Shown here one piece after another: positions 10,556-51,605 of a DNA stretch of 64,000 nucleotides. The notes under the pieces were generated by a model. The model searched no databases. It saw only the letters and a program-made list of their open reading frames with translations, and had not been told where the DNA came from. The position numbers were made by a program, and so were the translations under genes. The stretch is from Arenicellaceae bacterium. Its GTDB lineage: Bacteria > Pseudomonadota > Gammaproteobacteria > Arenicellales > Arenicellaceae. The DNA is taken from positions 62,001 through 126,000 of the forward strand of contig JAQWNC010000009.1 in NCBI GenBank assembly GCA_029246505.1. Reading direction: 5' to 3'. The stretch's first letter is position 1. Each line of letters begins with the position of its first letter.

Positions 10556-10851
10556 GGCGTCTCTGGCGGGTCGAAGAGAACTACTCAGTTCGACAACCTC
10601 GACCGGAACGAACTTGAGCAGACGGAGGCTGGCCCAAAGGTTAAAATACAAGGAGGTTTTATAATCTCTCCGAGCGTATGGAGAAGGCCTATGGGGTAAT
10701 ATTTTTATTTTCGTTCCAGTATGTTGTTTTAGAAGCACTCTTTACGCACCTTGTAGACACCACCTATACTCGTCGGACTCCAATAGAATATTGGGAGTTA
10801 GCGACGCGGATTTTCTGCGAAACAACACTCATTTATATACGGGAGAGAAGC
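10556..10851. other. Region between tRNA hairpin and membrane protein, with imperfect tRNA 3'-end copy
   Basis: No gene is convincingly encoded here. At 10662-10676 lies AATCTCTCCGAGCGT, nearly identical to the tRNA-Arg 3' segment AATCTCTCCGGGCGC at 10502-10516. This looks like an old attachment-site duplication or a tRNA fragment. GC content from 10560 to 10640 is visibly higher than in alr. A possible ORF start at 10678 runs in frame into the next gene, but it is passed over in favour of 10852. Confidence 0.45.
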
Positions 10852-11283
10852 ATGCCAGACACTATAAATCGACTGAATATTGCGCGCGCACTCACGATTA
10901 TTGGATTCGTGATCGGTCTGCGTAGTGTAGGTTTCACCTGGGATCATATCGGTAGCGCCGGATTCTTGATGACACCGGAGAGCCCCCTCGCTGTGGAGCA
11001 CAGCTGGCATCATTTCTTCCGCGAAGTTTTCGGCGACGCGGCGTCGATGATCGTTGTATTAATTCTTCTATACGTTCCACAGCAGTTGCGCCAGCCAGCA
11101 GTGTGGTGGTCAATGTTGATTCTCCTCCTTGGGTTTTATGCGCCGTTCTGGGTTGGTGTTCCGTTCATGGCCGAACTCGCAGCGCCGAGTATGGTGGCTG
11201 AGGGTCTGCATGTGAAGATGGCCCTACCGCCGATGATCGGTGTATTCTTATGCAGAAGTTACTATCACCAGAAGGTTGCCTAG
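10852..11283 (+). CDS. Small integral membrane protein of unknown function
   Basis: A 143-residue protein with about four hydrophobic segments: near residues 10-25, 60-80, 88-105 and at the end. A polar loop reads EHSWHHFFREVFGD, whose two adjacent histidines with Glu and Asp could bind a metal (inference). The ATG at 10852 is chosen because GGGAGAG lies just upstream. The frame is open further back to 10678, but that extension looks non-coding. Codon use is richer in GC than in alr or the wall genes, and the gene sits just behind a tRNA with a duplicated 3' end, which suggests acquisition. No family was recognised. Confidence 0.6.
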   Translation: MPDTINRLNIARALTIIGFVIGLRSVGFTWDHIGSAGFLMTPESPLAVEHSWHHFFREVFGDAASMIVVLILLYVPQQLRQPAVWWSMLILLLGFYAPFWVGVPFMAELAAPSMVAEGLHVKMALPPMIGVFLCRSYYHQKVA

Positions 11284-11374: not shown

Positions 11375-12439
11375 GTGATAACTATTAGAGGGTTTGGATC
11401 AAAGCGCGTTGGGAAGCTATTGGCTATAGCCGGTTTTTCTCTGGGGTTTTCGCTGTCTTCTTTAGCTGCAACTGCAGAGATAGAAGCCAATAAAATGGCC
11501 GTAACGCGCTTAATACACGCTATGGGTATCCCCGCAGAATTCTCAGGAGTGGCTCTTGAGGTATTTGCCGAAAACGACAAGCAGCTGCGCAACGAATTTG
11601 AAAACTTGGTTTATAACGCTAAAGACCCGGTGTTGTCAGAATTAGCTTTACCCCCTTATGAGGCAATCACAAATCGAACTAATACTATCACTCGAATTTT
11701 GGGCGAGGGCAATATGGTGGCTGCATCTATTCGTGTTCAGGGCACACATTCTGGTAATCTTTATGGGATTCCTGCCACAGGAAAGACATTCGACATTGAA
11801 TCTGCAGCTGTATTTAAGTTGGCGAATCGGAGGATTGTCGAAGCCTGGTATATGGCTGATGAGGCTACATTGCTTCGCCAATTGGATGTTCGCCTGCCAG
11901 TTCGGCAAGATGGTTTGATCAATCTTCCACCGGGCCGCGGCGATGTCGGTACTTTCGATGACGCATTAGCTGAGCATATGACCAATCCTGTAGACACACC
12001 AGAGTATCGCCACAGCAAACTATTACTCGCATATAAATCTGAGAATAAACCAGTAGGCTACAACTTTCCTGACAGGCCTTATTCTAAACTCCTCCGCAGT
12101 AGCATGGAAAAAATTAATAAACGTGGAGCAGAACTTGGGTTCGAAGGTAACCATAATGCATCGATGAGCGGTAAGCATGAGCTACTCGGCAACTTTATGT
12201 CCGAGGGCGACCTAGCGATGTTTAAGTTTCGACTCAGCGCGGTTAATAGCAGCCTGCTATATAGTGTTTCTGCTTCTGGTAACACTTTGAATAATTGGAA
12301 GCTCGGCTTTGCTGAGTTTGATGGCGATTCGTGGACCAACGCTTGGTTTATGGCAGATGAGCTTGGGTTTTTGCTAGCTATAGGTAATCAAGAGGCGACG
12401 GAATTCTTGGTGGGTGATATCGGCAAAATATACCCCTAG
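11375..12439 (+). CDS. Exported protein with two SnoaL-like domains
   Basis: A 354-residue protein with a signal peptide (hydrophobic core LLAIAGFSLGFSLSSLA, cleavage near residue 32). Two regions resemble each other and the SnoaL/ester-cyclase NTF2 fold. In the first (about 40-170) a GKTFDIESAAVFKLANRR stretch leads to IVEAWYMADEATLL. In the second (about 225-350) FDGDSWTNAWFMADELGFLL repeats the W-x-MADE pattern. Each may form half of an intramolecular dimer. The start is GTG, with AGGAGA seven bases before it. The substrate is unknown. The DUF6152 protein follows 44 bases downstream, probably in the same operon. Confidence 0.65.
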   Translation: MITIRGFGSKRVGKLLAIAGFSLGFSLSSLAATAEIEANKMAVTRLIHAMGIPAEFSGVALEVFAENDKQLRNEFENLVYNAKDPVLSELALPPYEAITNRTNTITRILGEGNMVAASIRVQGTHSGNLYGIPATGKTFDIESAAVFKLANRRIVEAWYMADEATLLRQLDVRLPVRQDGLINLPPGRGDVGTFDDALAEHMTNPVDTPEYRHSKLLLAYKSENKPVGYNFPDRPYSKLLRSSMEKINKRGAELGFEGNHNASMSGKHELLGNFMSEGDLAMFKFRLSAVNSSLLYSVSASGNTLNNWKLGFAEFDGDSWTNAWFMADELGFLLAIGNQEATEFLVGDIGKIYP

Positions 12440-12483
12440 GTTGTTGGGTGATAGCCAAACTATACCGAATATCGAGGTAACAG

Positions 12484-13545
12484 ATGAATTTACGTAAGTA
12501 TTTTGCCATAGGCGCGGTTGTTTTGATTTCAAGCCAAGTGTTATTTGTGTATGCGCATCATTCTGATACTCCTCATTTTTTTATGGATCAGAATGTTATT
12601 TACGAAGGGGTTGTTACTGACTTCAAGTTTGTGAATCCACACGTCTACGTTTATTTTGATATGGCGATAGAAAATGGGGGTAATGAGGCCTGGCGTTGCG
12701 AATTACCGGCGGCGATTACTTTACGCCGTCAAGGGTGGTCGCCGGAGTCACTGACTAATGGTCAATTAATTAGAATTGATGGGTCTCCTGCACGCCGTGA
12801 GGCTCGGCACTGCTACTTTAATGCCTTTGTGCTTGACGATGGAAGCGTTGTTGAGCGCGCGGACGCGGGCCCGGTGCTCGTTGCGGAGGGTGCGGCTAAA
12901 GACCGGCAGCTGCAATTGGCTGGTGCTCAGCCTAACATTAGCGGTCACTGGGTTGCCCGGCCACGCTCGGGAAGGCGTGAACCTGTTACACAGACAGCCG
13001 CAGCGCTTGCCGCGGCTGAGGCCTATGAATATGAGTTTGACCACCCTGCATTACAATGTAAGAGTGTGGGGATCATTCACGGGTGGCCATTTAGCAGGTT
13101 TGTGAATCAAATTATTCAATCGGATACCAAGATAATAATCTTGTATGGGTACATGGATTTACGGCGAACAATTCATTTAGATGTTGCCGAACACCCTAAA
13201 ATTATGACTCCTAGCGTGGCGGGTCATTCAATTGGACACTGGGAAGGTGAAGTATTGGTGGTCGATACTGCAGGCATTTCAGCGGGGGCGGTATCTCCGC
13301 TTCGAAAAGTAATGCATAGCGACCAATATCATGTGGTGGAGTATTTTAGCTATGATGAAACCGGTCAAACGCTTATACGTGAATATACTGCAAATGATCC
13401 GCTGTATTTTGAAGCGCCGTATAGTGGCCGAGATGTCGCAGATATTTCTGCGCTAGCTTACCAGCCCTATGATTGTAAGGAGCTTTCGGGTTCTAACAAT
13501 ATTCGCCCGGGTACAAAGACAATCGGTGAGCGCCATATCGAATAA
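12484..13545 (+). CDS. Exported DUF6152-family protein
   Basis: A 353-residue secreted protein. The signal peptide ends near AYAHHSD, and mature proteins of DUF6152 typically begin with such a His-His-Ser. The first domain (about 25-130) has the family pattern of a beta-rich fold with VNPHVYVYFD. The second half contains RRTIHLDV and GHSIGHWEGEVLVVDTAG. The same two motifs occur in the paralogue at 47869-48942. The histidine-rich start suggests metal binding, but no function is established. It probably forms an operon with the preceding SnoaL-like gene. Confidence 0.7.
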   Translation: MNLRKYFAIGAVVLISSQVLFVYAHHSDTPHFFMDQNVIYEGVVTDFKFVNPHVYVYFDMAIENGGNEAWRCELPAAITLRRQGWSPESLTNGQLIRIDGSPARREARHCYFNAFVLDDGSVVERADAGPVLVAEGAAKDRQLQLAGAQPNISGHWVARPRSGRREPVTQTAAALAAAEAYEYEFDHPALQCKSVGIIHGWPFSRFVNQIIQSDTKIIILYGYMDLRRTIHLDVAEHPKIMTPSVAGHSIGHWEGEVLVVDTAGISAGAVSPLRKVMHSDQYHVVEYFSYDETGQTLIREYTANDPLYFEAPYSGRDVADISALAYQPYDCKELSGSNNIRPGTKTIGERHIE

Positions 13546-44404: not shown

Positions 44405-46099
44405 ATGAAATTTTTAAAGTTTGGGCTACTAGTCCTGATTGTTCAATCAACAGCTGTTTTTTCGTTGAATGCACAGGAGGTGCCGGACCAGATTTTTACC
44501 AACGGTAAGATAATTACTGTGGATGACTATTTCTCGATTCAACAAGCAGTTGCTATAGCGGGAGATAGAATTGTTGCCGTCGGTAGTAATGATGAGATCA
44601 GTGATTTGGCAGGCCCTGAAACACAGATGATAGATTTGTCGGGAAAGACCGTAGTTCCAGGCCTGATTGATAACCATAATCATGTGGTGCGAGCAACCGA
44701 GTATTGGCCGAATGAGGCACGTTTGGATGGTGTAACTAGCCGGGCGCAAGCGTTAGAAATTGTTAGAGATAAAGTGCAAGATCTCGCAGATGATGCTTGG
44801 TTAATGTCACTCGGCGGTTGGCAGGAGAGTCAATTCACGGATAGCCAAGCGGATTTTACTCTGTCAGAAGTAGATGGCTTAGCTTCTGATCGGCCAGTTT
44901 TTTTGCAGTCTAATTATCACCACATTTACGGAAATACCGCGTGGTTTGAGGCGATGGGGATACCATTGTCGGTTTCCCCGGGGTCTGTTGACGAACTCGA
45001 TGGTTTAGCAAAGTATGTCGCGCGAGATGAGAACGGCAATATTACCGGTCGATTGAACGGCGGGTTTCCGATGATTACTGAGGCGATAAAGCGATTTCCA
45101 CCGGTTTCGGCTGACCAGCAAGTAGATGCTATCAAAATTGCATTTAGCTATATGAACAGCATTGGGTTGACCAGCGTGTTCGATCCGGGTGGCGTTGGAA
45201 TAAAACAGGAAAGTTATGCGCGTACAGAGGCATTGGCAAAATCCGAGGGAATCAATGTGCGAATTTTTCATACGTTAAATGCAAATGTTCCTGCTACTGC
45301 GGAAGCGGCAGATCTGCTTATTGACCGGATTCGTTCGACTAGGCCTTTTCAGGGAGACTCTACATTTGACTTAGTCGCCATGGGAGAGATTTATTATGGC
45401 CCATTTCATTGGGATGGTGTTTTTGATCCGGTTGTACCAGAACCGGCTGATATTGTAGAAGGCCGTAAAATATTGACAGCTGCCGCCGAAGGCGGCTGGC
45501 CAGTGCAAACGCACGCGATGCAGCCTGAAACTATGGATATCTTGTTGGATGTAATGACTGATATTAATGAAGAACACCCTATTCGCCAATTGCGCTGGTC
45601 GATTACGCATGCTGACAATATCGGCGCTTCGCAAATTGAGAGGGCCAGGCATCTTGGTATGAACCTACAGATGCGTAGTATTTCTGTGTTGGGTAACCGG
45701 AAGCCAGTGGTTGAAAAGTTTGGAGATGCTGCCTACGACATGCCGCCATTGCGCTTGGTGCAGGATAGTGGAATACCGTTTGGGCTTGGAACCGATGGAA
45801 CAAAGGCGAACCAAATCGCGCCATTCGTCACATTGTGGTGGGCGGTGACTGGCAAAGCATTGAGTGGTGAGTCGGTTATGCGGCAAACGCTGACTCGAGA
45901 AGAAGCTTTGATCGCACATAGCCGGTCAAATGCTTATTTAATGTTTCAAGAGGCAAATCTAGGTTCAATAAAACCTGGATTGCTGGCTGACATGTTAATT
46001 CTGGATCGGGATTATTTAACCGTTCCAGAAGATCAAATAAAAGATATTCGACCAGTTGCTACAATTGTAGGGGGACGTCTGGTTAGCGGTGAATTTTAA
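44405..46099 (+). CDS. Exported YtcJ-like amidohydrolase
   Basis: A 564-residue amidohydrolase-superfamily enzyme. The first metal site is DNHNHVV (91-93) near GKTVVPGLID. Later segments VQTHAMQ, THADNIGAS and FGLGTDG supply the remaining His and Asp ligands, and LLADMLILDRDYLTVP is the end of the domain. A signal peptide (about 1-23, ending LNAQ) indicates export. YtcJ-like proteins hydrolyse N-acyl or cyclic amide bonds; the substrate is unknown. It is followed by a TPR lipoprotein and a DUF6152 protein. Confidence 0.85.
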   Translation: MKFLKFGLLVLIVQSTAVFSLNAQEVPDQIFTNGKIITVDDYFSIQQAVAIAGDRIVAVGSNDEISDLAGPETQMIDLSGKTVVPGLIDNHNHVVRATEYWPNEARLDGVTSRAQALEIVRDKVQDLADDAWLMSLGGWQESQFTDSQADFTLSEVDGLASDRPVFLQSNYHHIYGNTAWFEAMGIPLSVSPGSVDELDGLAKYVARDENGNITGRLNGGFPMITEAIKRFPPVSADQQVDAIKIAFSYMNSIGLTSVFDPGGVGIKQESYARTEALAKSEGINVRIFHTLNANVPATAEAADLLIDRIRSTRPFQGDSTFDLVAMGEIYYGPFHWDGVFDPVVPEPADIVEGRKILTAAAEGGWPVQTHAMQPETMDILLDVMTDINEEHPIRQLRWSITHADNIGASQIERARHLGMNLQMRSISVLGNRKPVVEKFGDAAYDMPPLRLVQDSGIPFGLGTDGTKANQIAPFVTLWWAVTGKALSGESVMRQTLTREEALIAHSRSNAYLMFQEANLGSIKPGLLADMLILDRDYLTVPEDQIKDIRPVATIVGGRLVSGEF

Positions 46100-46202
46100 A
46101 TCAGCATAAGACCTAAGCTCTAGAGATAAACATACACCCTGGCTGCAATGTGCTTGGGTTTATCGTTAAAACAATAAATTTTTACTACAGGAGATTCACG
46201 GA

Positions 46203-47801
46203 ATGCGTAATGGTTTCACAGCACTTTTAATTTGTTTCGGCCTCACGGCCTGTGTTGGTATGGAGAAGACAGGTGAAAGTAATTCACTAGATGACGGACT
46301 GGCTGCTTTTCAAAAGCCAGTTGACTATATCCCATCAGCATTGGGGCCGCATTCATGGGCAGTGACAAGCGCCAACGACATGGCGCAAAATTACTTTAAT
46401 CAGGGTCTGCAGTTGCGTTACGCCTATAGCGTTGATGATGCGGCTAGAAGTTTCCGTGAAGCACGCCTCGCTGATCCTGCTTGCGCGATGTGCTACTGGG
46501 GTGAAGCCTTTGCATTGGGTGCATTTTTGAATGGTGGTATGACCGCTGAGAAAGCACCTTTCGCACATCAAGCAATTGAAAAAGCGGTCGAGCTTTCAGC
46601 AAACGCTACTGAAATGGAGCGAGATCTTATTATGGCTGCTCGTGATCGATACCCAGCTGATTTTGATACCGACAATGCGGAGCCTATAAATCAGGCATTT
46701 GCAGAGCGAATGAAGCTTGTTTACGAAAAATACACTGATCATCACGATGTAGCATTTGTCTATGCGGCTTCAATTTTCTTGCTTGAGGAGCGAAGGGGTC
46801 GACGCGATATTGAGGAACCGGGTTTGATCCATTTGCATGGGGTACTAACAGGTATTTTGACTGAAAATATTGCTCATCCGGGCGCCTGCCATTTATATAT
46901 TCACGCGACGGAGTCGAGTCAGCAGCCTGAATTAGCGTTGGAATGTGCAGAGTATCTTAGCGATGCAATTCCCGTGGCAAGCCATATTCAACATATGCCT
47001 TCACACACCTGGAACGAAGTGGGTTATTGGGGTAAATCGGTGCGGGCTAACATAACTGCATACCAGTCCGATCTTAAATCCAGAGAAAACCAGGGTTTTG
47101 CTTACGCGACTATGCACAATTTACATATGTTGCTATTTGCAGCCTCAATGGATGGCCAAAGCGCAATAGCAACGCAGGCTGGTAAAGATTATGCTAAGGA
47201 GACGGGTAATAGTATGTACCAGGCTCTTACGCTTCTCCGCTTTGGTCGCTATGACGAAATACCCGCTATAAGTTCAAGACCTAGCGGTGATATTGAAGGT
47301 GGCTTTTGGGATTTTGCTCAAGGCTATGCAGCGTTAAAAAATGGAAATCAGAATGAAGCCAGACGTTATCTCAGCAAGGTGCAGGACCTAGCGGCTACGT
47401 CAGAGGCTGAGTTTCGCTGGCATGATGCGGAGCATTTAATGGGACTATCTGCAGCCATTCTTGAGGGTGAAATACATCGGATAAATGGTGAGATGGATGA
47501 GGCAATCGCAGCCTTTCGTCGAGCAGTAATGTTTGATGATGAGCAACCTTATGATGAGCCTGAACCGATCCCCTATGCTGCTCGACATTGGCTTGGGGCC
47601 GCACTTCTTGAAACAAAACAATACGCAGAAGCAGAACAGGAGTATCGTACTGAACTCGCTGATCATCCACACAATGTGTGGTCATTGCACGGATTGAAGA
47701 TCGCTTTATCCGCGCAAGGTAAATCCGATGCTGAAGTCGACGCAGACTATCTTGAAAGTAGTGCTCGTATGGATGTTTGGATCACAAGTTCTGTTATGTG
47801 A
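46203..47801 (+). CDS. TPR-repeat lipoprotein
   Basis: A 532-residue lipoprotein: lipobox LTAC, with lipidated Cys17. The N-terminal half has a motif family NQGLQLRYAYSVDDAARSFREA and AMCYWGEAFALG, typical of TPR proteins with a conserved Cys-Met-Cys-Tyr-Trp. Further repeats follow in the C-terminal half (YAALKNGNQNEARRYLSKV, DEAIAAFRRAVMFD, YAEAEQEYRTELADHP). It is likely an outer-membrane scaffold for protein contacts. It is flanked by exported proteins and may form one transport or degradation unit with them (inference). Confidence 0.75.
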   Translation: MRNGFTALLICFGLTACVGMEKTGESNSLDDGLAAFQKPVDYIPSALGPHSWAVTSANDMAQNYFNQGLQLRYAYSVDDAARSFREARLADPACAMCYWGEAFALGAFLNGGMTAEKAPFAHQAIEKAVELSANATEMERDLIMAARDRYPADFDTDNAEPINQAFAERMKLVYEKYTDHHDVAFVYAASIFLLEERRGRRDIEEPGLIHLHGVLTGILTENIAHPGACHLYIHATESSQQPELALECAEYLSDAIPVASHIQHMPSHTWNEVGYWGKSVRANITAYQSDLKSRENQGFAYATMHNLHMLLFAASMDGQSAIATQAGKDYAKETGNSMYQALTLLRFGRYDEIPAISSRPSGDIEGGFWDFAQGYAALKNGNQNEARRYLSKVQDLAATSEAEFRWHDAEHLMGLSAAILEGEIHRINGEMDEAIAAFRRAVMFDDEQPYDEPEPIPYAARHWLGAALLETKQYAEAEQEYRTELADHPHNVWSLHGLKIALSAQGKSDAEVDADYLESSARMDVWITSSVM

Positions 47802-47868
47802 TCAAATGTATTTTTAGACTGCTTATTGTTCGAAAGAGATATTAATTAATACCGTTAGGAGATTTTTT

Positions 47869-48942
47869 ATGAATGTAAATCTAAGACTTGTGATTACTGG
47901 TTTACTACTAGTATTACCACTATCAGTTTTTAGTCACCATTCTAATTCAGAGTTCGATCAAAGTGTTGATACTGAATTTGAGGGCAAGGTTGTACAGGTG
48001 CTATGGAGAAACCCGCATATCTTGATAGATGTTGCGACCACAGATGAGAGCGGAGTAGAAACAGTCTGGCATCTTGAAGGCTCTGCGGTTAGTGCGCAGC
48101 ATCGACAGGGTGTAGAAGCGGGGCTTATTCAAGAGGGTCAGCAAGTTCGTATTGCTGGGTGGGCGTCCACCCGTCGAGACAAACATTTACTTGTTAATCA
48201 TGTGCTATTGCCAGATTCAGTTGAGTTGTTGGTTGGCAATGTTCGGGAACCACGCTGGTCACAAACGGGCCTTGGTGAAGAGCGATTTATGGGACTGGCG
48301 GCGTCGCCCGAACAGCCGCTCGATGAGTCTTTAGGCGAAGCCGAACGGTTATTTCGGGTTTGGGTTCGTGCTACTGGTTCGTGGTATTTTAAGGGCGCCG
48401 ATGCTTACCAGTTGACCGAGCAAGCCTTAGTCGCAAAAGCGGCATGGAATGAATTTGAGGATAATCCCTTGCTAAATTGCACGCCACCAGGAATGCCTGC
48501 AGTTATGGGTAATCCCTATCCGATGCAGTTCGTTCAATTAGATGACACTATTGAGCTACGCTTCGAGGAGTTTGATGCGGTTCGTACGATTCATCTTGAC
48601 GATGCTGCGGTGGTTGCCCAGCAGCCACTGTCTCATCTTGGATATTCCGTTGGCCACTGGGAAGAAAATACCCTAGTTGTTAAAACCAATAGAATCAATT
48701 GGCCTTATTTTGATCGAGTTGGGGTTCCGCAAAGTGATGCAGTTGAAGTGGTAGAACGCTTTACGGCGGTTGATGTCGATAATCAGGACAAACTAATTTA
48801 TCGGTTGACTATCAGTGATCCCGCGACGCTTAACGAACCATTCACCTGGAATGGTGAATTTGTTGGAAAAGATGGGGAAGTCGTAGAGCGGTACGAATGC
48901 GTTTTAGAAGAATCAGTGGCGCAAAACACTCCGCAACCCTAG
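47869..48942 (+). CDS. Exported DUF6152-family protein, second paralogue
   Basis: A 357-residue secreted protein. The mature start FSHHSNSEFDQ has the same His-His-Ser as the paralogue at 12484. WRNPHILIDV is the N-terminal DUF6152 motif, and RTIHLDDAA and GYSVGHWEENTLVVKT are shared with that paralogue. Between the domains is an insert with RWSQTGLGEERFMGLAAS. No function is established. The gene ends the plus-strand group that began at 44405. Confidence 0.72.
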   Translation: MNVNLRLVITGLLLVLPLSVFSHHSNSEFDQSVDTEFEGKVVQVLWRNPHILIDVATTDESGVETVWHLEGSAVSAQHRQGVEAGLIQEGQQVRIAGWASTRRDKHLLVNHVLLPDSVELLVGNVREPRWSQTGLGEERFMGLAASPEQPLDESLGEAERLFRVWVRATGSWYFKGADAYQLTEQALVAKAAWNEFEDNPLLNCTPPGMPAVMGNPYPMQFVQLDDTIELRFEEFDAVRTIHLDDAAVVAQQPLSHLGYSVGHWEENTLVVKTNRINWPYFDRVGVPQSDAVEVVERFTAVDVDNQDKLIYRLTISDPATLNEPFTWNGEFVGKDGEVVERYECVLEESVAQNTPQP

Positions 48943-48978: not shown

Positions 48979-49899
48979 TTAGGTATCGTCTATGTTGAGT
49001 ATTTGAGTTAAATCAGCATCGCCAAAGCATCGTTTAAGCAAAGCATCCAACTGTTGTTTAGCCGATGCACTAATAGATTTTGCTGGTAAGCGAAGATGAT
49101 TGCTATCAATTAATCCGCGTAGACGAAGAATTTCTTTTCGAATCGCCGTTCCGGGCTGCTGCTCAAATACGATTAGCGGCAGGTACTTATGGTAAATGCT
49201 CCATGCAGTATCATGGTTGCCCGCATTAAATTGATCAATGATCGCGCGTAGAATTTCAGGGAAAGCAAAACCGGTATTGAACCCGCTGGAACCGGATTCC
49301 AGATCATAAATGCCGTAAAGCGCACCAAGCCCGGTTAACATAGTGATGTCCCGGCCGCCAAAGCTATCCTTCAAAAGGGCGATACGCTGAGGGCTTGGCA
49401 ATGCTTCGGCCTTCAGGCACTTGATGCTTGGGATTTCACTTACCATCCGAATGATTAAGTCCGTCGACATATTAACCGCGGTGATTTGCGGATGGTCTTG
49501 CAATACTATTGGCAAATCTATGCCGTCTGCCACCGCTTTTATATACTCAAACAGGGCCTGTTCGTTTGGCACAGGCAACTTAACTGGCGCGACCATGAGT
49601 GCTGACGCGCCAGCATTTTTCGCCATTTTTGCAGTTTCGATGGTTCCTTGTGTTCCGGTGTGAGAGACCGTTGCAATGACGGGCAACCTTCCGTCGGTTG
49701 CTTTGACTGCTGTAGTGATCAAAGACTCTTTTTCAGAGTCTACAAGTCGATTGGACTCGCCCAGCAGCCCGCTTACTGTGATCCCATCAACCCCCGATTT
49801 TTCGATGAATTGAATCATCTTTGTGAGCGAGGCCAAATCTACCGATTCGTCATCTTTAAACGGCGTGGCAAGAATTGGAATTACACCTGAAAAATTCAT
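48979..49899 (-). CDS. DapA-superfamily aldolase/dehydratase
   Basis: A 306-residue class I aldolase-type barrel. The Schiff-base lysine lies in IKCLKAEALP, and GVDGITVSGLLGESNRL is the N-terminal GxxGE-type phosphate/carboxylate loop. The DapA tyrosine (Y-N-x-P) is replaced by LQDHP, so lysine biosynthesis is unlikely. Related enzymes act on sugar acids or hydroxy-proline products. It is the last of a minus-strand trio with an SDR and an FAH protein. Confidence 0.82.
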   Translation of the reverse strand: MNFSGVIPILATPFKDDESVDLASLTKMIQFIEKSGVDGITVSGLLGESNRLVDSEKESLITTAVKATDGRLPVIATVSHTGTQGTIETAKMAKNAGASALMVAPVKLPVPNEQALFEYIKAVADGIDLPIVLQDHPQITAVNMSTDLIIRMVSEIPSIKCLKAEALPSPQRIALLKDSFGGRDITMLTGLGALYGIYDLESGSSGFNTGFAFPEILRAIIDQFNAGNHDTAWSIYHKYLPLIVFEQQPGTAIRKEILRLRGLIDSNHLRLPAKSISASAKQQLDALLKRCFGDADLTQILNIDDT

Positions 49900-49917
49900 T
49901 TTTTTAGGTCCGGTGTC

Positions 49918-50706
49918 TTAATATGCAGTGGTAAGTCCGCCGTCTACCAAGACGGTTTGCCCAGACGTATAGGTGTTAGCCTCTGAGCACAGAAACGCAG
50001 CAGTCCGGCCAAATTCAGCAGGATCTCCGTAGCGACCGAGCGAAATACTCTTTTTTGTGCTGGCCTTAATTTCATCAAGTGTTACTCCCATCTTTTCCGC
50101 GCGCATACCATCTAAATAAGCGATACGATCAGTCCAGATTCTTCCTGGCGCTAATACATTGATGCGAATATTATCGCTACCAAGTTCATTACAAAGCGTT
50201 TTACTCAACCCGACCACGCCCATTCGGCAGGTGTTCGAAAGAATGAGATTTGGCAGTGCTTGTTTAACTCCTGATGAAGTGCAGTTGAGTATCCAGCCTT
50301 GGCCTGCTTTTTTCATATGCGGAACAACTTCACGAATGCTGCGGATGTAACTAAGTAAATTCAAATTAATCGCATTTAGCCAGGCTTCGTCATCGAATTT
50401 GTCGAAAGTACCTGCTGGAGGGCCGCCGGCATTATTGACGAGAATGTCGACGCCGCCAAATTTTTCAACGGTGCTATTGACGACGTTTTTGATGTCATCG
50501 TAGTTGGTAATATCAGCTGCGGTGTAAGCGGGTTCATTGCCTGTTTCCTTAGCAAGTTCTGCCTGAACTTTTTTGAGCTCGTCCTCTCGCCGGCTACTAA
50601 TCATTATATTTGCGCCTTCTCGGGCAAGTTCGGTAGCGACTGCTTTGCCAAGTCCGGCACTTGATGCCATGACGATTGCTGTTTTGTTTTTTAGTCCTAA
50701 ATCCAT
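49918..50706 (-). CDS. SDR-family oxidoreductase with non-canonical active site
   Basis: A 262-residue Rossmann-fold enzyme. The coenzyme loop reads MASSAGLGKA in place of TGxxxGxG, with SSRRE (NADP-type) following and the NNAGG motif present. The catalytic Tyr-x-x-x-Lys is replaced by Ser-Asn-Thr-Cys-Arg in LILSNTCRMGVVGLSKTL. Other SDR-like proteins share this variant, so it may be a distinct dehydrogenase or a non-oxidoreductase. It stands 18 bases before the aldolase and 23 bases after the FAH gene. Confidence 0.85.
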   Translation of the reverse strand: MDLGLKNKTAIVMASSAGLGKAVATELAREGANIMISSRREDELKKVQAELAKETGNEPAYTAADITNYDDIKNVVNSTVEKFGGVDILVNNAGGPPAGTFDKFDDEAWLNAINLNLLSYIRSIREVVPHMKKAGQGWILNCTSSGVKQALPNLILSNTCRMGVVGLSKTLCNELGSDNIRINVLAPGRIWTDRIAYLDGMRAEKMGVTLDEIKASTKKSISLGRYGDPAEFGRTAAFLCSEANTYTSGQTVLVDGGLTTAY

Positions 50707-50729
50707 AATATTGCCTGTAATTAATTTGG

Positions 50730-51605
50730 TTATTGTTTAAGGTCAACTACATTGTTGATCAGTGGTTCAAAGCCGTCTATGTGACATTCAACTACATCAC
50801 CATCGTGAATGTGAACGGCTCCGGGGGTGCCCGTTGATAATATATCCCCAGCCAGCAGGGTCATAATATCAGAATGATACGAGACTAGATGATCTGGAGG
50901 AAATGTCATATTCGATACAACATTTTCTTCATGAGTTTTACCGTTGATAACGGTTTTAACGAGAAGGCTGTTCACATCGGTTACCTCGTCGGGAGTGACT
51001 AGTATAGGGCCCAAGCTCATGAACGTATCAAAGCTTTTCGACTGAGTCAGGTTTCTGGGGTTTCGCCTTAAAATATCTTCGGCGGTCATATCGAGAATTG
51101 CGACGTATCCGCAAATGGCGCTTTGCCAATCTTGTTTTGAGACGTGTTTACATGTTTTTCCGAAAACGATTCCTAACTCAGCTTCAGCAGTAGTTTTCTC
51201 GGAGATTTTTGGAATCTCAATGGTATCGCCATAACCGATAATCGCGGTATCTGGCTTCATAAAACTTGCGGGTTCAGTGGTAGGTGATTTCTCTGCTAAA
51301 TCTGCAGCATGTGCGAGGTAATTGAGTCCAATTCCCCATATTTTGCGCGGCCTGCGTATGAGTGGTGCGAATTGAACTGCATTCCGTGAAACAATTTTAT
51401 TGCCTAAGGCAGCTAACTGGGTGTTACCGCCGTTTTGATACCAAGCATTAATTTCATCCACCGTTTCAGTCTGGATAAGTTCGAACATATCGCTAGGCCA
51501 AGTTTGATCGAACTCGCTATTGGCCAATGCGATAGGAACCAGGCCTTGTCCTACGATGATTGCAGCGACTTCCGCATCATTATAATTAATAGTGGCTAGT
51601 CTCAT
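50730..51605 (-). CDS. FAH-family hydrolase/decarboxylase
   Basis: A 291-residue fumarylacetoacetate-hydrolase fold. The metal ligands E-x-E are in TTAEAELGIVFGK, and the downstream Asp is in VAILDMTAED. The C-terminal TPGAVHIHDGDVVECHIDG pattern is typical. Members hydrolyse or decarboxylate 2-oxo or 2,4-dioxo acids, or dehydrate hydroxy acids. It heads the trio and is divergent from the PcaD-like gene. Confidence 0.87.
   Translation of the reverse strand: MRLATINYNDAEVAAIIVGQGLVPIALANSEFDQTWPSDMFELIQTETVDEINAWYQNGGNTQLAALGNKIVSRNAVQFAPLIRRPRKIWGIGLNYLAHAADLAEKSPTTEPASFMKPDTAIIGYGDTIEIPKISEKTTAEAELGIVFGKTCKHVSKQDWQSAICGYVAILDMTAEDILRRNPRNLTQSKSFDTFMSLGPILVTPDEVTDVNSLLVKTVINGKTHEENVVSNMTFPPDHLVSYHSDIMTLLAGDILSTGTPGAVHIHDGDVVECHIDGFEPLINNVVDLKQ

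Follow-up and report, generated by a model that had tools for sequence, protein, structure and literature searches.

Exported DUF6152 proteins with a predicted His-His mature start and a recurrent C-terminal partner domain form a large family in an Arenicellaceae genome

Which component is shared by two separate groups of exported genes in an Arenicellaceae genome, and what might it do outside the inner membrane? The stretch studied (the window) comprises 64,000 nucleotides of an Arenicellaceae bacterium (assembly GCA_029246505.1, contig JAQWNC010000009.1, positions 62,001 to 126,000) and sits on C4 in our working numbering of the 30 contigs. At 44405-48942 an amidohydrolase, a TPR lipoprotein and a protein of the Pfam family DUF6152 (PF19649) are encoded in one direction with gaps of 103 and 67 bp, and at 11375-13545 a gene for a SnoaL-like protein precedes a second DUF6152 gene by 44 bp. 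A first-pass annotation had described both groups, which are present as it said (their families being confirmed by Pfam), and had proposed a periplasmic processing system built around a common, unnamed exported component. That component is DUF6152, of which the genome holds at least 100 matches. In this study, we describe the predicted mature start of these proteins, their most regular partner domain and the function that both may serve.

The DUF6152 protein of the trio (47869..48942, plus strand, 357 aa) is our main case, and that of the pair (12484..13545, plus strand, 353 aa) is built in the same way. They scored 56.9 and 60.1 bits, respectively, against PF19649, about twofold above the cut-off of 27. 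Both are fusions of an N-terminal DUF6152 part of about 100 residues with a C-terminal domain (C domain) of about 230 residues. In the 357-aa protein the signal peptide occupies 47869..47934, with a predicted cut between S and HH that agrees with the family-wide −3/−1 rule, followed by the DUF6152 domain (47935..48240) and the C domain (48244..48936; profile match C4:110244-110936). In the 353-aa protein, also on the plus strand, the signal peptide occupies 12484..12555, with a predicted cut between A and HH by the same rule, and the C domain 12889..13509 (profile match C4:74889-75509). The window proteins and the other matches lie in or at the edge of the Pfam family, whose model of 98 positions is given no function.

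A genome-wide profile search, with 104 candidates scored, gave at least 100 PF19649 matches in this 2.64 Mb genome; all genome figures out of 100 refer to the 100 matches listed. They were spread over 20 of the 30 contigs and were clustered: 65 of the 100 had a further match no more than 5 kb away, compared with a mean of 32 at random. The 115 module open reading frames (ORFs) in the fetched stretches make up 3.7% of the genome, which is a lower bound. One unnamed two-domain module thus takes up at least this share, yet the family is unstudied: no mention of DUF6152 was found in open-licence PubMed Central papers, supplements being outside the search. The sister species, the only other species of the genus searched (88% complete, about 260 contigs), had 40 matches, and the profile search gave none in 19 other genomes of the same family. 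In the rest of the order a single copy was found in one of 40 genomes. The class sample had a match in 4 of 184 genomes (including this one, the other three with one copy each) and the phylum sample in 35 of 299 (also including this one), where the largest other counts were 8, 7, and 4. Because the 19 genomes of the same family had none, acquisition by the genus and subsequent amplification appears more likely than inheritance.

With respect to the age of the copies, 28 of the 39 sister-species DUF6152 frames had reciprocal best hits here at 33-99% identity (median 69.8%; the hit near 99% is a single one, taken as computed), whereas the closest paralog within this genome had a median identity of 43.5%. 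This difference argues that much of the amplification predates the species split and that many copies are old and retained. An assembly artefact as the source of the copies was rejected in view of the 40 matches of the second species, and also of the number of contigs hit and the identity span of the reciprocal best hits. A tree built from 145 rows had poor resolution (9 changes between fused and short forms, few columns), a few of its rows being C-domain frames with a chance HH, and no conclusion was drawn from it. A few DUF6152 copies are fragments or bear stops; those with internal stops (C1:66503, C16:56708, C27:5592, and C21:70030) suggest birth-and-death turnover. Scans of viral contigs found no relative, and a pattern match at locus L062 proved on inspection to fall in unrelated ORFs.

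When the 100 matches were read upstream in frame, 96 had His-His directly behind a −3/−1 signal-peptidase site. The four exceptions were two proteins with HH but a proline at −3 or −1, one truncated copy and one false match inside a C domain. In 88 DUF6152 ORFs a leader with HH could be called; a cut placed right before HH obeys the rule in 87 of them, against 6 for a cut one residue earlier, 40 for two residues earlier, and 58 for five residues downstream, inside the mature part. In a control with a crude signal test, from which members of the DUF6152/C-domain cluster were left out, none of 328 other ORFs with a hydrophobic N-terminus had HH at such a site, compared with 87 of 94 DUF6152 ORFs. 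DUF6152 frames from other genomes, mostly of the sister species and also of Acidobacteriota, Sphingomonadales and Azospirillum, carried the HH motif in 54 of 56 cases, or in 52 of 54 distinct ones given that one Croceibacterium locus was counted twice; a second reading of the sister species alone gave 38 of 39. By this predicted processing, the mature DUF6152 protein should begin with His1-His2. Such a start is recorded in no source that we consulted for the family, and it makes a metal site a cheap and direct prediction. An ATCUN site, which is defined by a histidine at residue 3, was rejected, as it needs the cut one residue earlier, which suits only 6 of the 88.

His1, His2, and a third histidine in the NPH motif, His28, are the only histidines invariant in 62 long paralogs (62/62). 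For His1 and His2 the invariance is partly by construction, since the alignment rows were started at HH, while His28 was free of such selection. The His1-His2 codons lie at 47935..47940 in the 357-aa protein and 12556..12561 in the 353-aa protein, and those of the NPH histidine at 48016..48018 and 12640..12642, respectively. P27, C182, G236, E274, and C322 are the other invariant columns, and median pairwise identity is 29% in the DUF part and 26% in the C part. It had been remarked before that both window proteins carry HHS, NPH, RTIHLD, and GHWE, and that histidine clusters might bind metal. The four motifs are seen in both, and membership of PF19649 places the likeness far beyond chance. 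Of these motifs, only HH and PH hold up throughout the long paralogs, and their invariance supports HH and NPH as candidate metal ligands. The histidines of RTIHLD and GHWE are kept in 25/62 and 16/62, respectively, and both were rejected as metal motifs.

No exported partner accompanies DUF6152 more regularly than the C domain, which is either fused to it or encoded by the next gene. It measures about 200-230 aa, contains two Cys, one Glu, and one Gly that are invariant in the long paralogs, and has near its start a GxW motif which we take to be lipocalin-like. No Pfam or NCBIfam name was found among the members scanned, including a Pfam scan of 19 C-domain rows. When 772 ORFs taken from the fetched stretches were compared all against all, a single cluster took in 94 ORFs with a DUF6152 match and 21 that lack one; the latter carry the C domain, one as a tandem double, and two of them look like fragments. 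Genome-wide, the C-domain profile was matched 89 times: 63 of these C domains share an ORF with a DUF6152 match, 23 are adjacent to one (within 600 bp) and 3 lie elsewhere. One same-ORF case was dropped, its DUF6152 match (C23:48371, 26.9 bits) looking false, which leaves 62 fused ORFs. Among the adjacent C domains, 21 are on the same strand as DUF6152 (one in a short broken frame) and 2 on the opposite strand, and of the three found elsewhere one is the leading half of a tandem C-C ORF next to a DUF6152 gene, the other two being fragments near contig ends. A C domain lies within 600 bp for 91 of the 100 listed matches, for 33 of 40 in the sister species and, in the other sampled genomes, for 21 of 22 matches of at least 60 bits, a count that stays the same whether or not 13 weaker C-domain rows are included.

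The two halves may also be separate genes. A 6 kb Acidobacteriota contig, the only relative obtained from a contig scan, has a short DUF6152 gene and then a C-domain gene. On a Croceibacterium plasmid, two DUF6152 genes precede the gene of a hypothetical protein recognised by the C-domain profile, and on a Sphingobium plasmid C-domain and DUF6152 genes alternate. Four genomes of other genera (G379, G358, G361, and G445) have more C domains than DUF6152 matches, and these C domains are often found by themselves. In addition, a short DUF6152 subfamily starting with HHSHGNY or HHSHANF adjoins, instead of a free C domain, an exported protein of 219-242 aa (L031:6166-7267, L010:16122-17215, L019:6135-7186, and L048:6568-7771). 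This neighbour forms a cluster of 5 in the fetched stretches, and the one representative scanned had no Pfam match.

The DUF6152 part of the window protein was modelled from a four-row alignment, with a block mean pLDDT (predicted local distance difference test) of 80-89 in residues 11-90 except for one block at 62. Its strand order is β1-β2-β3-α-β4-β5. The 50 VIA rows listed (Z 8.8-10.0) were SSB, PriB, RPA, and editosome proteins, all of which we take to be OB (oligonucleotide/oligosaccharide-binding) folds. This good model points to a five-stranded OB barrel with His28 at the start of the second strand. The core of the lytic polysaccharide monooxygenases (LPMO) is an immunoglobulin-like/fibronectin-type β-sandwich, and LPMO rows were not among the 50 listed structural matches of the barrel. 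The C part of the window-protein model was of poor quality. For the Acidobacteriota relative, a three-row alignment gave a mainly β model of the C domain (mean pLDDT 63.9, predicted template modelling score 0.67), and 49 of the 50 VIA rows listed for it were of the FABP/CRBP type (Z 8.6-9.3, root-mean-square deviation 2.6-3.8, 111-122 residues aligned), the remaining one being a luciferase; in Foldseek the best E value, also to the FABP/CRBP type, was 4.3e-4. We read the C domain, in this model of moderate confidence, as a calycin-like and probably ligand-binding barrel. The known calycins (FABP/CRBP, lipocalin superfamily) are antiparallel barrels of 8-10 strands with a ligand cavity; compared with them, the C domain differs in being bacterial and exported, in its length and invariant residues, and in having no significant sequence match in PDB. 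PDB sequence searches gave no significant relative for DUF6152 either: the best rows were PriB OB folds with the long alignment (E 0.17-0.49) and mostly antibody chains with the short one, and a single row was found for the C domain (E 0.94).

Several exported families provide precedents for such a start. A recent study of DUF6702, DUF4198 and anglerases (Nat Commun 2025, PMC12537917) states that a free His at the N-terminus chelates transition metals regardless of the fold, and in those families, as is predicted for DUF6152, signal cleavage exposes an N-terminal His. DUF6702, for which His1, His28, and His32 are the modelled ligands, is a tight binder of Ni, Co, and Cu and has no significant oxidase or peroxidase activity. 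It is a β-sandwich of immunoglobulin-like fold, whereas DUF6152 is an OB fold in the model; neither a C-terminal calycin-like partner nor a hundredfold expansion is described in the excerpted text, and "6152" is absent from the main text of the paper (PMC12537917). The histidine brace consists of an N-terminal His and a further His, and the copper proteins that have it (LPMO, CopC, and pMMO site B) share, according to the excerpted source, the ligand set predicted here (PMC10952591). In silico, DUF6152 has the His at mature residue 1 in the proportions given above, and the invariant His2 and His28 are both candidates for the second, which in the brace completes a T-shaped site. The terms "OB-fold" and "histidine brace" were not found together in open-licence PubMed Central papers. 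Given that a free N-terminal His chelates metals and that the brace and DUF6702 are precedents, the DUF6152 site is, by analogy, most likely a metal site.

On these grounds we tentatively favour, among the explanations considered, an exported metal site, probably for copper, joined to a ligand-binding barrel and diversified for many small organic compounds. After cleavage directly before His-His, the free amine and imidazole of His1, together with His2 and/or His28, would hold a metal, most likely Cu(II), on the OB barrel. The site could be histidine-brace-like or tri-histidine, perhaps completed across a dimer or at the interface with the C domain. The all-β calycin-like barrel would bind a small hydrophobic organic molecule, with paralogues differing in their ligand. 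In this genus the module may have undergone a roughly hundredfold amplification that serves to capture, and perhaps to oxidise, a wide range of compounds beyond the inner membrane, which would feed hydrolases such as the neighbouring amidohydrolases. It is the paired barrel, the diversity of sequences and the catabolic neighbours that favour the handling of many small organic ligands. In this regard, the excerpted literature on SAR202 proposes that expanded paralogous catabolic enzyme families widen the range of oxidised organics (PMC10444878, PMC6946804, PMC5395668); SAR202 belongs to Chloroflexota and its families are enzymes, whereas the family expanded here has no assigned function. If our proposal is true, an OB-fold scaffold joins the N-terminal-His metalloproteins, linked to a diversified ligand-binding barrel, and the module is a candidate new bacterial way to handle many small organics outside the inner membrane.

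It must be noted that a number of points weigh against this proposal. The metal binding, the redox role and the ligand are predictions from sequence and models. The models rest on the four-row and three-row alignments, and residues 1-3 of the DUF6152 model, His1 and His2 among them, have a pLDDT below 50. The N-terminal-His families that were tested bound metal, yet they had no significant (DUF6702) or only weak (the Ni-DUF4198 peroxidase) activity (PMC12537917). With regard to the pairing, none of the 33 weaker DUF6152 matches of other genomes has a C domain within 600 bp, and one strong match also lacks it. Nine genomes of other genera have the C domain, and of their 53 C-domain rows (some being parts of the same gene) no more than 21 are found within 600 bp of a DUF6152 match. 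A strict pairing rule therefore fails, as each half is able to occur without the other, and the frequency of C domains without DUF6152 in other genera lowers our confidence in the proposal. The weak matches are possibly a second subfamily; one of them, in Azospirillum, abuts a DUF6644 gene (L066:3905-4791), a family for which no mention was found in open-licence PubMed Central papers either (supplements again outside the search).

A bolder version, which we consider decidedly improbable, sees in the DUF6152-calycin modules a new class of exported copper oxygenases or peroxygenases with an OB fold, in which a histidine-brace-like mononuclear site would be combined with an interchangeable lipocalin-type substrate barrel, the roughly 100 variants forming a P450-like extracytoplasmic repertoire. 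It would give the genus a broad capacity to oxidise hydrophobic or recalcitrant small organic molecules.

Among the alternatives to the diversified metal-and-ligand module, non-enzymatic metal capture or trafficking is unlikely but deserves serious weight. DUF6152 would hold Cu, Ni or another metal in the manner of DUF6702, DUF4198 or CopC, and the C barrel would bind a metal-chelate or a membrane partner. The low activity of the closest tested precedents, as excerpted (PMC12537917), speaks for it. So does the setting of some genes: TonB receptors neighbour the DUF6152/C-domain pair on the Croceibacterium and Sphingobium plasmids, and at L028:2109-6737 a short DUF6152 gene without a C domain shares its strand with genes for PepSY_TM and TonB-receptor proteins, a setting that may point to metal uptake. 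However, metal supply alone hardly explains some 100 diverged copies in one genome, and of the neighbour families tested (amidohydrolases, NHL propellers and ABC transporters) the first two are the enriched ones.

It is also possible, with a clearly lower chance, that His1, His2, and His28 form no metal site and serve folding, signal-peptide processing or the binding, on the OB face, of an anionic ligand. Anionic polymers are common ligands of OB folds, and the nearest folds of the DUF6152 model are SSB and PriB. Against this, HH is in general dispensable for signal cleavage, as the 328 control ORFs without it indicate, and a histidine at the mature N-terminus chelates transition metals naturally, whatever the fold (PMC12537917).

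The processing system of the first-pass annotation, in which DUF6152 would be a part shared with the amidohydrolase, the TPR lipoprotein and the SnoaL protein, was judged by the neighbours themselves, all on the plus strand. The exported amidohydrolase of the trio (44405..46099, 564 aa) belongs to Amidohydro_3 (230.5 bits, cut-off 29.7). The TPR lipoprotein (46203..47801, 532 aa) has TPR repeats by Pfam (TPR_2, 29.5 bits) and a visible LTAC lipobox, and the exported SnoaL-like protein (11375..12439, 354 aa) scored 60.7 bits (cut-off 28.4). Of 25 Amidohydro_3 rows, the 10 genes of at least 90 bits were used, and 7 of these have a DUF6152 match no farther than 3 kb away, against an expectation of 16.8% of the genome (p = 2.8e-4). 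The same held for NHL propellers in 9 of 14 ORFs (merged from 19 rows; p = 9.2e-5), and the control, ABC transporters, gave 1 of 28 (35 rows, two of them below the cut-off and dropped, the rest merged). Therefore, a looser catabolic association of amidohydrolases with DUF6152 is real. Together with the co-directional genes, their short gaps and a TPR orthologue that likewise stands before DUF6152 genes in the sister species, it speaks for a common system. The TPR and SnoaL families, on the other hand, have only 3 and 2 members in the genome against at least 100 DUF6152 matches, and are not constant partners. Moreover, the sister-species TPR orthologue (79% identity; L078, contig 153) precedes two tandem fused DUF6152 genes whose closest relatives here are a tandem pair on contig 9, outside the window, so the DUF6152 partner of the TPR lipoprotein has been exchanged between species. 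The Acidobacteriota contig, with DUF6152 beside the C domain, has no amidohydrolase among its ORFs as read by eye. The neighbour enrichment, the small TPR and SnoaL families and the change of the TPR partner therefore show that the exported neighbours are a varying catabolic context and not a fixed machine, and the processing system as proposed is very unlikely. NHL propellers near DUF6152 genes are found, for instance, at L061:3927-5216, L021:4321-6700, and L043:10670-11914, and a propeller-like protein, named by sequence reading, is also present on the Acidobacteriota contig.

Finally, an amplification of a mobile or recombining gene that was neutral for the most part and brought little diversification of function would fit the clustering of the matches and the few copies with stops or in fragments, but has scant probability in view of the reciprocal best hits of 28 of the 39 sister copies and of the invariant residues that persist at such low paralog identity.

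As to further features, promoter-like sites numbered 6, fewer than the mean of 9.1 in shuffled sequence, and terminator-like sites 7 against 4.5, an excess of about one standard deviation; neither result was used. A 201-aa probable membrane protein without a Pfam match is encoded upstream of the SnoaL gene (10678-11283). Behind the trio, a minus-strand run at 48979-51605 contains lyase-like, SDR-like and fumarylacetoacetate-hydrolase-like genes, named by sequence reading, the last of which is a member of a 6-member cluster in the fetched stretches.

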